A DNA stretch of 32,393 bases, from contig JALEHB010000220.1 of NCBI GenBank assembly GCA_022763285.1, forward strand, positions 1-32,393. Direction: 5' to 3'. Below, piece after piece: positions 14,286 through 30,685 of this stretch. Position 1 is the stretch's first letter. The number at the start of each line of letters is the position of its first letter. A program made the translations under genes and the position numbers. The notes under the pieces are model-generated. The model searched no databases, had not been told where the DNA came from, and saw only the letters and a list, made by a program, of their open reading frames with translations. This DNA comes from Pseudomonadales bacterium. GTDB taxonomy: Bacteria; Pseudomonadota; Gammaproteobacteria; Pseudomonadales; Pseudohongiellaceae.

Positions 14286-16877
14286 TCACGGACGGCGAAA
14301 TGCCAGGGTGTAGTTCACCGCATCGTCACCAGGGTCCATGATTTCCAGTGCTACCTGAATTGGCGTGGCGGGGGGCAACAAACGTCGATTCTGCAGTGCC
14401 TCATCCAGATACTCTTGTGGGGCGAATTCACGCAGGGCAATGACAGAGTTGCTGGCGCTGTTAAAGCTCAACACCATGACAGGAAACTCCTGGGGAAAAT
14501 TGGCATTGTTGCGAAACTCCACATTCACCGCCAGGGCATCACTGCGCTGGGGATGACTGCGAACCGACAGGTTGCTGCTCTGGATGGCATCTATCTGTGA
14601 GTACACTGGCAGTTCGCAGCCGCTCAGGGAGCAGGCCCATTCATACACTGGTCTCAGGCTGGCCTGCTGGCTGTAGCGGGGTAATTCCTGCCACAGATAC
14701 TGCGAGGCCAGTCCCAGGGCCGCCAGCAGAGCCAGTAGTGTCCAGCCAAGGCGGCGGCCGAGCTGACGGCGCCGGCCCTCCAGAATTTCCACCGGCGTGG
14801 AGAATTCCCCCAGTACCTTCAGATTCTCCTCCGGAATAGCCTCCAGAGCCTCATCGTCCTCCAGTTCTGCTTGCAGGGCCCGGGCGCGGATGGCGGCCAG
14901 GGACTGATCCGGTGATTCCTGTTGCGGGTCGGCTGCGAATTCCTGCTGCGGGGCTTCGTCTGCATTGTCTTCCGTAGTACTGGCTTCGGTCTCCGGGCTC
15001 TCTGGCGCAACGCTACTGTCTTCTTCCGTGCTAATTACTTCAGTGCTCTTTGCCTCAGTGCTCTCTATCTCAGTGCTCTCTATCCCAGAGTTCTCTATCT
15101 CATAGCTCTCTATTTCAGAGTTCCCTGGCTCAGCACTCTCTACCCCGCTACCCGAGACCTCTGTACTCTCTGTCTCAACAAACTCTGTCGCTGCTTTTTC
15201 TTCCTCGCTACCAGCAGCGTCACTCTCTTCGGCTGCAGTAATTCCTGTCTCAGATTGATCGGCCTCATCTGTTTCTATCAGTACTGCCTCAGTTTGCGCT
15301 TGTGGCTCTGCATCGAGACTGCTTGCTGCATCGAAGTCGCCGTTTTGCCAAACCTCGGTGTCATCAGGCTGATGGTGACCGTCGGCCAGGTTTTCCAGCT
15401 CGTCCCTATCCCGGTTGGCCGTTTCCGTTTGTTCAGGCGGCCAGGCTGCTTCGCCCGGCAGTTCTGCAGCTTCGCCTTCTGGCCCCGGCTCCTGGGTCTG
15501 CCGCCAGGTTTCAGCGCTATCTCCATCCGGTTCGGTGCTTATAGCCTCGGCTGAGTCTGCTTCCGGCAGTTCTACATCCGGCTGCTCCTCCTGCCAGTCG
15601 CTGTCCAGCAGGGCTTGTTGAAAGTCCTCTTCCTCCAGGGCGGCGTTGAATTCTTCCTCCAGCGCCGCAGTATCTCTGGTCTCATCATTGCCGGTTTCGG
15701 AACTGTGTGCCGGATCTGCTATGCCGTGTTCTGAGCTGACTTCGTCGCTGCTGGTCTGACCGGGAGCTTCCCCGGAGGCGCCAGCGGGTGATAGTGGTTC
15801 GGGAGTTGCGAACAGTGGCGTTTCAATAGTGAAGCGGGCATGCAGGCGCAAATGTTCCGGTCGCTGCTCATCTGCAAAAGAGTCAGCGAAGGAGCTGGTA
15901 AAGGAGTCGGAAAAGGGCGCTGTTGGGCTTGCCGGTGACACTGACTCAGCTTCCGGCAACTCGTCTGGAGCTTGCCCTGAATCTTTTTCTGTTTCCTGCT
16001 CTGATTCCTGGTCTGACTCCTCAGCTGATTCCAACGCTTCACTCACGCTCAGTTCATCCCGGGCCTCAGTTTCTGTCGGCAAGTCTTCGCCGGGCTCTGG
16101 TGCTGCTGTTGCCAGTAAGGGCGATTCCTGATCCGGGCTTTCGGCAAATTCGTCCTGATGCTCCTGGTCTTGCGCGTCTCTTTCATCTGGCTCACCGGGC
16201 TCATCCAGCGCTTCTGACTCAGCCAATTCAGCCGGATCAGTCAGGCCAGCCAGTTCAGCGGCGTTCAAATTGTCTCTGCCCCGCTCGGCCTCGCCTGGTT
16301 CAGGCTCGATGGGGGCACTTTCCGGGGCCGCGTTGTCCGCAGCTATGGGGTCGGGCGAGGCTGGCTCATCAGTGAAGTCCGGTTCAATAAGGGCTTCGTC
16401 AGATTCATCGACACCGGCTGCCACCAGGGCCATGAAATCGGATTCCTCTGCGATATAGATCTCGCCGGCCTCGCTGTTATCAGGCGCGCTCTGTCCGGCT
16501 GCATCAATGAATGCTGAGGTCTGCTCCGGGGCAGGGTCGGTGGCAACGGCGGAAGATTCGGGCTGAATTTCTTCGCCGGTCAGTTTGAGACTGTCACCGC
16601 TGAGATCAGCTTCTGACTGCTCGGCCAGTGCGTCGCGCAGGGACTGCCGGGTAAGAAAGCGGGATGGATTGAAGAATTGCTCTGGAGACTGACTGACAAA
16701 GACCGATTCATTCTCACTGTCTGCCGGTTCGGGCTCTGTGTCGATGAAATTTTCCCGGGCGTCGAAGACCGTCAGGCAGGCGCCACAACGCACCCGGCCG
16801 GCCGCCGTCTCCAACAGCGACGGGCTGGTGTTGAAAGTGGATTCACAGGCAGGGCATTGTGTGACTCGCAGCGTCAT
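14286..16877 (-). CDS. zinc-ribbon (MJ0042-type) and DUF3426 membrane protein with a very long acidic low-complexity linker
   Basis: N-terminal CPACESTFNTSPSLLETAAGRVRCGACLTVF zinc ribbon; TM segment LGWTLLALLAALGLASQYLW; C-terminal DUF3426-like region (ACSLSGCELPVYSQIDAIQ...). The central linker is rich in E, S, A, D and T. Located between dusB and prmA. Confidence 0.85.
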   Translation of the reverse strand: MTLRVTQCPACESTFNTSPSLLETAAGRVRCGACLTVFDARENFIDTEPEPADSENESVFVSQSPEQFFNPSRFLTRQSLRDALAEQSEADLSGDSLKLTGEEIQPESSAVATDPAPEQTSAFIDAAGQSAPDNSEAGEIYIAEESDFMALVAAGVDESDEALIEPDFTDEPASPDPIAADNAAPESAPIEPEPGEAERGRDNLNAAELAGLTDPAELAESEALDEPGEPDERDAQDQEHQDEFAESPDQESPLLATAAPEPGEDLPTETEARDELSVSEALESAEESDQESEQETEKDSGQAPDELPEAESVSPASPTAPFSDSFTSSFADSFADEQRPEHLRLHARFTIETPLFATPEPLSPAGASGEAPGQTSSDEVSSEHGIADPAHSSETGNDETRDTAALEEEFNAALEEEDFQQALLDSDWQEEQPDVELPEADSAEAISTEPDGDSAETWRQTQEPGPEGEAAELPGEAAWPPEQTETANRDRDELENLADGHHQPDDTEVWQNGDFDAASSLDAEPQAQTEAVLIETDEADQSETGITAAEESDAAGSEEEKAATEFVETESTEVSGSGVESAEPGNSEIESYEIENSGIESTEIESTEAKSTEVISTEEDSSVAPESPETEASTTEDNADEAPQQEFAADPQQESPDQSLAAIRARALQAELEDDEALEAIPEENLKVLGEFSTPVEILEGRRRQLGRRLGWTLLALLAALGLASQYLWQELPRYSQQASLRPVYEWACSLSGCELPVYSQIDAIQSSNLSVRSHPQRSDALAVNVEFRNNANFPQEFPVMVLSFNSASNSVIALREFAPQEYLDEALQNRRLLPPATPIQVALEIMDPGDDAVNYTLAFRRP
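15041..15175 (-). repeat. 15-bp tandem (minisatellite) repeat inside the DUF3426-family gene
   Basis: About 9 degenerate copies of cagtgctctctatct (plus strand), starting at 15041, 15056, 15071, 15086, 15101, 15116, 15131, 15146 and 15161. They encode 5-aa units such as IESTE. Confidence 0.85.
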
Positions 16878-27231: not shown

Positions 27232-27678
27232 TCAGGCGCCTTGCCAGACCATTTCCAGGCTGTGCTCGTCGGCATTGCTTTGCGCAAAGCCGCAGCGACG
27301 GTGAAACTCCACCGCCGGGTTTGTCTTCAGTACCCTCAGGAACACCGCCTGTTGCTGGCGGCGGGCGCTGGCCTTGATGTGGTTCATCATCAGCCGTCCA
27401 TAGCCCTGACCCTGGCAATCAGGTTCCACCAGGATCATTTCCAGTAACAGTGAGCCGGTATTGGGGCGCAGGTAGTAGCAGCCCAGACGTTGTCCGCAGC
27501 CCTGCAGTATCTGGAAACCGCGGGCCGGCAGGCTGGTGACAAAACCTTCCCGCTGCAGGCGTTCTTCCCAGCCCCAGGCAGCATCGATGTATTCCTGCAT
27601 GGTCAGTCGAAAGAGCTCGAACAGCCATTGCTCATCCTCAGTACATCCCTGACGAAACTGTACTGCCGAGTGAGTCAC
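27232..27678 (-). CDS. GNAT family N-acetyltransferase
   Basis: LLLEMILVEPDCQGQGYGRLMMNHIKASARRQQQAVFLRVLKTNPAVEFHRRCGF, acetyl-CoA-binding Q/RxxGxG/A-like motif. Confidence 0.88.
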   Translation of the reverse strand: MTHSAVQFRQGCTEDEQWLFELFRLTMQEYIDAAWGWEERLQREGFVTSLPARGFQILQGCGQRLGCYYLRPNTGSLLLEMILVEPDCQGQGYGRLMMNHIKASARRQQQAVFLRVLKTNPAVEFHRRCGFAQSNADEHSLEMVWQGA

Positions 27679-27690
27679 ACCCTCACCCCG

Positions 27691-29106
27691 TCATTGATCG
27701 GATGTCCCGTTACTGCTGTGCAGGGGACGTTTCCATTTAAGCTTTTTCTCTACCGCATGGATCAGCATGCCAGCCAGGTCCTTGCCACTGTTTCCTTCCA
27801 CATGCTGCAGGTTAGGTACCGCATTGATATTGAGTACCAGTGGGCCGCGGCTGGATCGGATCATGTCGACACCGGCGACCTTGAGACCGATGGCCTTGGC
27901 GGCTCGTACAGCCATGCGCTTTTCAGCGGCAGACAGTTTGGTTGCCTTGGTGACCCGGCCACGCTGCAAATTGGCGCCGTATTCATCCAGAAAGGAATTG
28001 CTCTCATTGCCGGCCACGGCCTTGCCGTCTATTACCAGCACGCGAATATCCTGGCCGCCGGCCTCCTTGATGTATTCCTGAATCAGCATATTGGCATTGA
28101 TGGACTTGAATGCCTCGATGACAGATTCCACAAACTGGTTCGAGTCAGCCAGCATGACGCCGTCACCCTTGGCGCCCTGGATCAGTTTGATCACCAGGGG
28201 GACGCCTTCCACCATGTCCACCAGGTCAGCCACATCGGCCGGAGTATTGGCGGCGGCACTGGCAGGCATGGGAATGCCATGATTGAGCAGGGTCTGCATG
28301 GAATGCAGGCGATCGCGGGTGCGGGCAATGGCCTCGGAAGAATTCAGACTGAAGATGCCGATGGATTCAAACTGCCGCAGAAGGGCACAACCGAACAGGT
28401 TAATATCGGCCTTGATGCGGGGAATGACAGCGTCGAAGTCATTGAGTGTGCGGCCGCGACCGAAGTGAATTTCGGGGTTGTCCGCATCCAGCTTCATATA
28501 GCACTGCTTTATATCGATAAAGTGAATTTCATGCCCCCTTTCCTCTGCCGCCTCAATGATGCGGCGATTGCTGTAGAGGCGGGGGTTGCTGGCCAGTAAA
28601 CCGATCTTCAGGCCTTCGACACCGTGGGCCGACTGGCCATAGAGTTTTTCCACGGCAGCCTTATTGATGTCACCACAGAGTAATTTTGCCGAGGGATCAA
28701 CCAGAATGCGGTTAATCATGGCAGCCCGGCCCAGCAGCATGCGATAGCCCATGGAATCGCGATTGGCCAGGGTAACCTCGGTCTTCCATTGTTGGCCGGA
28801 AAGCTCCAGGGTGGTCTCAATGACATAGCGCTTTTCTGCTACACCGCTGGAACTCTTCACCATGCGCCGGTCTACCACTTCTGATTCGCAGCGCACGATA
28901 ACCTTGCGGTTGTGCTGGATCGGGTGCAGCTCGTAGCTGACCATGGAGACGCCGCCGCGCTTGAAGCCGCGAATATTGAAGGCATGCAGGGAAGAGGTCT
29001 TGGCGCCGGAGTCCACCCGGGCCTTGATGGCGGGAATGCTCAAGTCGGGAAAGCCGCACCATTCCTCACTGCCAACGATAATCCGTTCGTCGTTTGTCTT
29101 GTTCAT
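27691..29106 (-). CDS. RimB-like retropepsin domain fused to a RimK-like ATP-grasp ligase
   Basis: N-terminus: AIKARVDSGAKTSSLHA and LANRDSMGYRMLLGR (PF05618/RimB-like). C-terminus: IGLLASNPRLYSNRRIIEAAEERGHE, AVIPRI, RDRLHSMQTL, LVIKLIQGAKGDGVML, ANMLIQEYIKEAGGQDIRV, GLKVAGVDMIRSSRGPLVLNIN (RimK-like). Confidence 0.92.
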   Translation of the reverse strand: MNKTNDERIIVGSEEWCGFPDLSIPAIKARVDSGAKTSSLHAFNIRGFKRGGVSMVSYELHPIQHNRKVIVRCESEVVDRRMVKSSSGVAEKRYVIETTLELSGQQWKTEVTLANRDSMGYRMLLGRAAMINRILVDPSAKLLCGDINKAAVEKLYGQSAHGVEGLKIGLLASNPRLYSNRRIIEAAEERGHEIHFIDIKQCYMKLDADNPEIHFGRGRTLNDFDAVIPRIKADINLFGCALLRQFESIGIFSLNSSEAIARTRDRLHSMQTLLNHGIPMPASAAANTPADVADLVDMVEGVPLVIKLIQGAKGDGVMLADSNQFVESVIEAFKSINANMLIQEYIKEAGGQDIRVLVIDGKAVAGNESNSFLDEYGANLQRGRVTKATKLSAAEKRMAVRAAKAIGLKVAGVDMIRSSRGPLVLNINAVPNLQHVEGNSGKDLAGMLIHAVEKKLKWKRPLHSSNGTSDQ

Positions 29107-29107
29107 G

Positions 29108-30685
29108 TCAGGAAGTGTCCCATTGCCTGATCTGCTGGATCAAGCCGGCGCTGGAGCCATCCAGGCCGGCAGAATTGTTGTCATCGTCCAGCGCGCTGAA
29201 CAGTGATTTGGATAACTGCTTGCCCAACTCGACTCCCCACTGGTCAAAAGCATTGATTCCCCAGATCACACTTTGCACATAGACCTTGTGTTCATACAGT
29301 GCAATCAGGCTTCCCAGATTGTGAGGGTTGAGTTCATCGAGTAACAGGGTATTGCTGGGCTTGTTGCCGGGTAGCTGTTTGTGAGGGTCCTGCTCGTCGG
29401 GAGTGCCCTGCATCAGGGCCAGGGACTGGCTCAGGCAATTGGACAGCAAATGCCGATGGGCCTCGCCGGCTTCATCAACGCCGGCTCTGGCGGTGGCGAT
29501 AAAATCCACGGGTATGAACTCGCGCCCCTGATGGAGCAACTGGAAATAGGAGTGCTGACCATTAGTGCCCACGGTACCCCACAACACCTCACCGGTATTG
29601 CTGTCTACCGGATTACCGGCCCGGTCCACGCGCTTGCCCAGGCTTTCCATATAGAGCTGCTGCAGAAAGCTGGGAAATTGTTCCAGAGGCTGGCAGTAGG
29701 GCACCACGGCGCTGCTATGGGCATTGAAGAAACCGGTATACCACACCGTTAGCAGCCCCATCAGCACGGGCATGTTCTGCCGCAGTTCTGCGCCGCGAAA
29801 ATGCTGGTCCATGGCGTGGGCACCGGCCAGCAAAGCCCGGAAGTTGTCCATGCCGATTGCCAGGGCGATGGGCAGGCCGATGGCGGACCAGAGGGAATAG
29901 CGGCCACCCACCCAGTCCCACATGGGAAAAAGATTATCCGGGTCAATGCCAAATGCCGTCGCTGCCTCCAGGTTTGTGCTGATGGCAACAAAATGTTTGG
30001 CGATGGCGGCTTCATCTGCGGCACTATTCAAAAACCAGCGTCGTGCCGCGGCCGCATTCTGGTGGGTTTCCAGGGTAGTGAAGGATTTCGAGGCGATGAT
30101 AAACAGAGTGGTTTCCGGGTCCAGTCCGGCCAGGGTCTGCCTGAGGTGAACCGGATCCACATTGGAAACAAAATGCACTGCCACATGGCCGCTGCCATAA
30201 GCCTTGAGTGCCTGGGTCACCATGGCCGGGCCCAGGTCGGAACCACCGATACCAATATTGACCACGGCTTTAATGGCCTTGCCGCTGAAACCTCGCCACT
30301 GCTGGCTGTGCACTGCCGCGACAAACTGCGCCATTTTGTCCAGCGCCGCCGCAACCTCGGGGTGCGAGCTGCTCCCGGCAGGCTCGCGCAGAGCGACATG
30401 CAGTGCGGGCCGATGTTCGGTGTTGTTAATGGCTTCGCCACGGAACATGGCGTCGATGGCAGCCGGCAGTTCGCGGGCCTCGGCCAGGGCAAGCAGGGCT
30501 TCCAGGCTGGCCTGATCGAGGATGTTTTTGGAGTAGTCCAGCAGCAGATTTCCCTGCCTGAGGGAGAAATCCTGAAATCGCTGCGGCTCATCAAATAATC
30601 GCCGCAGCTGAAACTGCTCAGCAGTAAAACGTCTGGCCTGGTCCGACAGGGTCTGCCAGGCAGCAAGATCAGTCAGGCCACTCAT
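29108..30685 (-). CDS. pgi: glucose-6-phosphate isomerase
   Basis: VNIGIGGSDLGPAMVTQAL, FVSNVDPVHLRQTL, IASKSFTTLET, GTNGQHSYFQLLHQG, VIWGINAFDQWGVELGKQL. Confidence 0.98.
   Translation of the reverse strand: MSGLTDLAAWQTLSDQARRFTAEQFQLRRLFDEPQRFQDFSLRQGNLLLDYSKNILDQASLEALLALAEARELPAAIDAMFRGEAINNTEHRPALHVALREPAGSSSHPEVAAALDKMAQFVAAVHSQQWRGFSGKAIKAVVNIGIGGSDLGPAMVTQALKAYGSGHVAVHFVSNVDPVHLRQTLAGLDPETTLFIIASKSFTTLETHQNAAAARRWFLNSAADEAAIAKHFVAISTNLEAATAFGIDPDNLFPMWDWVGGRYSLWSAIGLPIALAIGMDNFRALLAGAHAMDQHFRGAELRQNMPVLMGLLTVWYTGFFNAHSSAVVPYCQPLEQFPSFLQQLYMESLGKRVDRAGNPVDSNTGEVLWGTVGTNGQHSYFQLLHQGREFIPVDFIATARAGVDEAGEAHRHLLSNCLSQSLALMQGTPDEQDPHKQLPGNKPSNTLLLDELNPHNLGSLIALYEHKVYVQSVIWGINAFDQWGVELGKQLSKSLFSALDDDNNSAGLDGSSAGLIQQIRQWDTS

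Follow-up and report, generated by a model that had tools for sequence, protein, structure and literature searches.

The rimBK gene of the window (the whole 32,393-nucleotide stretch of DNA analysed here) probably encodes a working RimB polyglutamate protease fused to a RimK half that is non-ligating or strongly impaired and is kept by selection as a pseudo-ligase; judging from sequence, we place the probability of this reading at roughly 0.6. The fusion architecture itself is already published (PMC11957791); the novelty lies in how the RimK half has decayed across RimBK hybrids. The observation is real and not trivial: the window gene belongs to a known type of fusion, but its apparently writer-dead state is new.

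The fusion gene and its locus

The rimBK open reading frame lacks internal stops over all 471 amino acids, and Pfam places PF05618 at residues 10-141, Rimk_N (PF18030) at 166-260 and RimK (PF08443) at 263-451 (Table 1). The DSG of the RimB half is intact at residues 32-34. The original prediction of a single 471-aa RimB-RimK fusion with an intact DSG therefore agrees with both the ORF and the Pfam assignments, and its guess that the architecture was already known proved right, since RimBK hybrids are named in the accessible text of PMC11957791. The protein belongs to the RimB retropepsin family by PF05618 (118.5 bits, cut-off 27) and to the RimK family by TIGR00768 (223.6 bits vs. a cut-off of 143.4) and PF08443 (165 vs. 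21 bits), and with RimB and RimK domains in one ORF it is a RimBK hybrid. Its score for NF052261, 121 bits, lies below the 200-bit cut-off, as does that of every RimB of its bacterial family, and it also falls short of the S6-ligase equivalog NF007764 (312 bits vs. a cut-off of 331).

Table 1. Features of the rimBK locus in the window
Feature	Position	Strand	Description or basis
rimBK hybrid gene	27691..29106	-	471 aa; RimB retropepsin, RimK pre-ATP-grasp and ATP-grasp domains; ORF and Pfam
RimB half, residues 10-141	28684..29079	-	PF05618
DSG catalytic Asp32	29011-29013	-	within RimB half
RimK half, residues 166-451	27754..28611	-	Rimk_N PF18030 and RimK PF08443
Metal motif, Asn426-Ile-Asn428 (AAT ATC AAT) in place of E-x-N	27823..27831	-	alignment and codons
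Rewritten substrate loop, residues 365-384, AGNESNSFLDEYGANLQRGR	27955..28014	-	sequence comparison
pgi (PF00342), directly upstream of rimBK	29108..30685	-	same strand as rimBK
GNAT acetyltransferase, directly downstream of rimBK	27232..27678	-	linkage

The order pgi-rimBK-GNAT is conserved over most of the window's bacterial family, which indicates vertical inheritance of the fusion at a single locus there. Among fusions of the same GTDB genus, the nearest named relative is from an uncultured Pseudohongiella (L069). Six intact fusions of this genus (L005, L006, L038-L041) are 57-63% identical to the window protein and lie beside pgi in five of six cases; unlike the window protein they have an intact ligase site, and five of the six genomes are without a standalone RimK. 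Three database entries are probably mislabelled or mis-binned: L074, titled Klebsiella pneumoniae and carrying pgi-rimBK-GNAT, and L077 and L079, titled Planctomycetaceae and Gimesia and carrying rimBK only, all encode fusions that closely resemble marine gammaproteobacterial ones.

The closest characterized system is the RimBK hybrid of Desulfotalea psychrophila (Q6AKK4), which, like the window protein, has an N-terminal RimB retropepsin and a C-terminal RimK. According to the accessible text of PMC11957791, this hybrid cuts polyglutamylated RpsF whereas RpsF glutamylation was not seen, its RimB portion (residues 1-163) cuts as efficiently as SBW25 RimB, and the authors left open whether the hybrid lacks glutamylation activity or has another one. 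The same text reports no loss of catalytic residues. The Rlo system (RloA retropepsin, RloC ATP-grasp; PMC12239564) also pairs a RimB-type retropepsin with an ATP-grasp protein, but its protease is secreted and unfused, and is encoded in a separate operon with RloB.

The RimK active site

E260 of E. coli RimK, which we take from general ATP-grasp knowledge to be a metal ligand, aligns without gaps to Asn426 of the window protein, whose codon is AAT at 27831-27829. The alignment and the codon reading both bear out the prediction that the Glu of the E-x-N motif had become Asn, and the alignment also supports retention of D414 (D248) and N428 (N262). Only two of the three metal residues D248, E260 and N262 are therefore present. 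The substrate loop is rewritten as had been described, with R203S, F210Y, R211G, H215Q and G218R, so that of R203, R211, N213, H215 and R216 the window protein keeps N213 and R216 only. Standalone RimKs of E. coli (5zct/5zk6), P. aeruginosa (7qyr) and P. syringae (7qys) have the same fold and are 46-49% identical to the window RimK half; K141, E178, R189, D248 and N262 are common to all, and the window differs from them, besides the changes already named, by K100R, S7A and R8S. Reported ADP contacts of RimK include K141, E178, F210, S212 and N213, and reported poly-Glu contacts in the P. aeruginosa enzyme include S7, R8, R64, R189 and N262 (PMC10092738). Since K141, E178, R189, N213, D248 and N262 are all retained, ATP binding and weak or altered catalysis are still possible in the window protein.

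Position 260 is otherwise highly constrained. It is Glu in 53/53 standalone RimKs. Of the 99 fusions in which the position is occupied, 94 have Glu, four have Asp and one, the window protein, has Asn; no other sequence in the whole set (100 fusions, 53 standalone RimKs) carries Asn here. Unlike the window, intact fusions (50 in the order, 2 from Persicobacteraceae and 2 plasmid-borne in Thioclava) keep both E260 and N262. The residue is Asp in the window's closest relatives and Glu in the orthologues at 57-63% identity. No acidic residue that might substitute for E260 occurs around N426 (N-I-N-A-V-P-N) in the gapless alignment. The AlphaFold model retains the strand at 421-428, and replacement of E260 by a displaced acidic group is no more than a formal possibility.

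A different change, Ala-Ser in place of Ser7-Arg8 (window residues 172-173), is found in nearly all sampled fusions, intact ones included. These fusions come from Gammaproteobacteria and Bacteroidota, and two Rhodobacterales examples keep Arg. One poly-Glu contact thus appears to be altered across the fusion subclass, which may be connected with the lack of RpsF glutamylation seen for a RimBK hybrid.

Two ordinary explanations for the substitutions fare poorly. The protein could be a normal bifunctional RimB/RimK enzyme in which they are tolerated, as the modelled RimK fold and several intact ATP ligands would allow, but the bridging metal Glu is lost together with H215, R211, R203 and F210, which are unchanged in nearly all homologues, and we consider this highly improbable. 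A sequencing or assembly error might be suspected in a draft MAG (3.40 Mb, 293 contigs, ~91% complete, 8.5% missing). However, the change from Glu to AAT requires at least two base changes, which is more than chance or error would give, and there are twenty coordinated departures in a frame that stays open. An independent assembly (L036/L063) has the loop in common with the window, which already refutes an error and leaves it a negligible chance; together with L037 it also rules out a single-species oddity.

Decay confined to one half

To compare the two halves, 100 non-identical fusions and 53 non-fused RimKs were collected from the same family and order, together with species-level contigs. 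Columns were called invariant in RimK when conserved at ≥97% in a reference of 103 intact homologues (50 intact fusions and 53 standalone RimKs), which gave 67 such columns; 27 invariant RimB columns came from the same reference. The window departs at 20/67 RimK columns, including E260N, H215Q, R211G and R203S, and at 0/27 RimB columns, in a comparison whose reference was drawn from intact groups and which favours finding departures outside it. Its 77%-identical orthologue L036 also departs at 20 RimK columns and L037 (65% identity) at 19, while L009, from another family, departs at 39, the g26, g27 and g28 genera at 7-15 and L135 at 7. The remaining fusions show no more than four departures each, apart from L223, a partial and divergent sequence, with six.

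The RimB half behaves quite differently. All 27 of its columns are kept in the window and in nearly all degenerate fusions, the exceptions being two cases of S38T, one of V136I and the columns that a truncated sequence lacks. Against a fixed panel, the ratio of RimK to RimB divergence is 1.32 for the window, compared to 0.55-0.85 for intact fusions and 0.88-2.09 for degenerate ones, apart from L135 at 0.79. The departures in RimK and the raised ratio, with the RimB invariants kept, indicate that one half alone degenerates. In some other degenerate fusions the D/E/N residues are kept and the changes are confined to loops.

Selection and predicted structure

Within the degenerate g27/g28 clade, median omega for the RimK half (0.08) and the RimB half (0.11) is close to that of intact fusions (0.09 and 0.11), so both halves, the disabled one included, are under strong purifying selection there. 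Between the window and L036, omega is 0.05 for RimK and 0.04 for RimB, with dS saturated. An AlphaFold2 model of the window protein has a mean pLDDT of 80.5, and the structures nearest to its RimK half are RimK crystal structures, 7qyr among them (TM 0.87 by target, rmsd 3.4 Å). Definition of the ATP-grasp lid and substrate loop is poor in this model and better in that of the intact sister L038, run with the same sequences, with lid block means of 42-55 vs. mostly 53-81; the contrast between models is suggestive only as to the state of the window RimK half. Catalytic loss within a clade, a retained fold and purifying selection, which together mark a pseudoenzyme, are all found, the omega evidence being firm for the g27/g28 clade and saturated in dS for the window lineage.

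Independent losses among relatives

The two nearest relatives of the window have lost different catalytic residues. L036, from another MAG, carries E260D, N262H, R203S, R211G and H215Q, and L037 carries K141N, E260D, N213R and H215E, so that the metal motif reads N-I-N in the window, D-I-H in L036 and D-I-N with K141N in L037. The window and L036 have a new loop in common, ESNxxxDxxGANLQRG. The original prediction looked to conservation of the Asn or of the altered loop in a clade as a sign that the change is meaningful. The Asn itself is not conserved, but E260 and the original loop are lost in all three. Degenerate fusions also occur in a 27-member sister-genus clade (g26-g28) and in two more distant fusions, L135 and L009. 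On a maximum-likelihood tree from which the active-site loops were excluded, the degenerate state needs four changes, and the starred branches force four: the trio of window, L036 and L037; the g26-g28 clade; L135; and L009, whose long branch makes its placement uncertain. L135 (G306) has E260 and N262 intact with a rewritten loop (RPKTNVDGS) and a rewritten glycine loop, and looks like an early form of the same decay.

It could be argued that the RimK half is a working ATP-grasp ligase that has been re-purposed for another acceptor, amino acid or metal arrangement. The window protein keeps most of its ATP contacts as well as D248/N262, the RimK half of degenerate fusions is under strong purifying selection, and the loop common to the window and L036 is a specific one. 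The S6 tails might point the same way, as a C-terminal Glu is found in only 2/23 degenerate-fusion genomes vs. 9/20 with separate RimB and RimK (species non-independent), but S6 ends also vary among genomes without RimK, and we give this marker no weight. However, the unlike catalytic losses in three sister species argue against one new shared chemistry, with no single new site conserved, and Asn cannot give the charge of a Glu that is invariant in standalone RimKs. A re-purposed ligase is therefore unlikely. Of the two alternatives in the original prediction, a different substrate or metal arrangement is weakened for the same reason, although the ATP-binding residues are largely kept. A pseudo-ligase joined to an active protease appears better supported, since the RimK half decays in a clade and in three other lineages with RimB intact.

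Separate RimK and a probable reciprocal loss

Scans of fusion-bearing genomes with TIGR00768 found a standalone RimK in all degenerate-fusion genomes save those of the window (G000) and G094 (76% complete). A canonical standalone enzyme accompanies the degenerate fusion in G146, G151, G076, G306, G054 and, apart from G094, g27/g28, and the standalone RimKs that were read (L145, L146, L147-L153) have an intact metal motif. In the tree set, where tallies are non-independent, 30/32 degenerate fusions have a separate RimK partner vs. 14/48 intact fusions of known genome, and where the genome has no standalone RimK, 34 of 36 fusions are intact. When degeneracy and standalone RimK were compared by pairing on the tree, ~3 contrasts spoke for a link and 0 against (sign test p ~0.25). 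The counts are strong but the independent contrasts few, so the link is consistent rather than proven.

The fused RimB is the sole RimB domain in G146, G151 and the g26-g28 genomes. Relatives carry a rimB-rimK-AstE operon, and the window's sister species have MOSC-rimK-AstE, from which rimB is missing. This is most simply explained by reciprocal loss, with the ligase retained in the separate copy and the protease in the fused one. The gene 3' of rimK in L010-L020, L145, L146, L151 and L154 (rimB-rimK-AstE) is succinylglutamate desuccinylase/aspartoacylase-like (PF24827).

A second rimK, which the original prediction had thought worth looking for, is present in sister species and apparently absent from the window's own genome. 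Neither a standalone RimK nor the AstE-like neighbour gene was found in this draft, and the only RimB found was the fused one. Two other PF08443 matches were considered as a second RimK and rejected, their sequences being GshB-like and Ddl-like. The flanking PNPox-VOC-MOSC block is present, with MOSC followed by a convergent mgtE; this junction rules out an assembly gap concealing rimK at that point and shows that the rimK-AstE pair is absent from its syntenic place. Most simply, the standalone pair has been lost from the window's species, though a relocated rimK may sit in the portion of the genome that the draft lacks.

The missing RimK and AstE, together with an S6 that ends in ...DKAES rather than Glu, would fit a decaying relic, that is, a Rim system leaving the species after loss of the separate rimK. 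We regard this as quite improbable, and less probable than a re-purposed ligase, because the ORF is full-length with every RimB invariant retained, omega is ~0.05 (saturated dS), and the terminal branch (0.28) compares with 0.25 for L036, which still has RimK.

A proposed function for the fused RimK half

The retained pseudo-ligase could have arisen as follows. The ancestor of the species group would have had the fusion and a separate operon of the rimB-rimK-AstE type; ligation would have passed to the separate RimK and cleavage to the fused RimB, after which each copy would have lost the other function, rimB from the separate operon and the ligase site from the fusion, and in the window's species the separate rimK-AstE pair would have gone at a later step. 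RimB is a dimer that binds and modulates RimK, itself a tetramer (PMC10092738), and these oligomeric states are the basis for proposing that a RimK fold that no longer adds glutamate would hold RimB domains together. The RimK half may also dock on standalone RimK or on a polyglutamate tail and so hold the protease close to the substrate; with no RimK in the window's cell, a scaffold that docks on RimK would be partnerless there. For the window RimBK we infer loss of the ligase, retention of the protease and a scaffold role from sequence comparison. More tentatively, pseudo-RimK may have evolved at least four times in RimBK by division of labour with a separate RimK, the eraser riding a dead writer that joins mixed RimK tetramers or holds RimB dimers. 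Persistence without a writer in the window's species would then imply a polyglutamate protease role independent of S6 glutamylation.

These fusions bear on the question posed by the characterized hybrid, in which, by the accessible text of PMC11957791, tails are cut and RpsF glutamylation is unseen. Visibly disabled ligase halves and intact close orthologues at the same chromosomal locus provide matched protein pairs for assay, and they offer a clear case of reciprocal loss between fused and separate copies of a writer-eraser pair. They are also candidates for a bacterial pseudo-ATP-grasp enzyme; a search of the open literature for 'ATP-grasp' and 'pseudoenzyme' together found a single paper, on the eukaryotic TTLL12.

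Finally, several observations were made alongside the main analysis. S6 tails vary widely in the family (e.g. L035:1495-2031), being Asp-rich and ending in K/D/N in degenerate-fusion genomes, whereas many end in Glu in genomes with separate RimB and RimK. Near rimBK in the window lies a gamma-glutamylcyclotransferase gene (AIG2-like, PF06094; 26454-26828, plus strand), a gamma-glutamyl enzyme alongside a polyglutamate system, and this linkage is retained within the genus. The window also encodes a zinc-ribbon protein of the DUF3426 type whose acidic linker is very long (14289-16877, minus strand).
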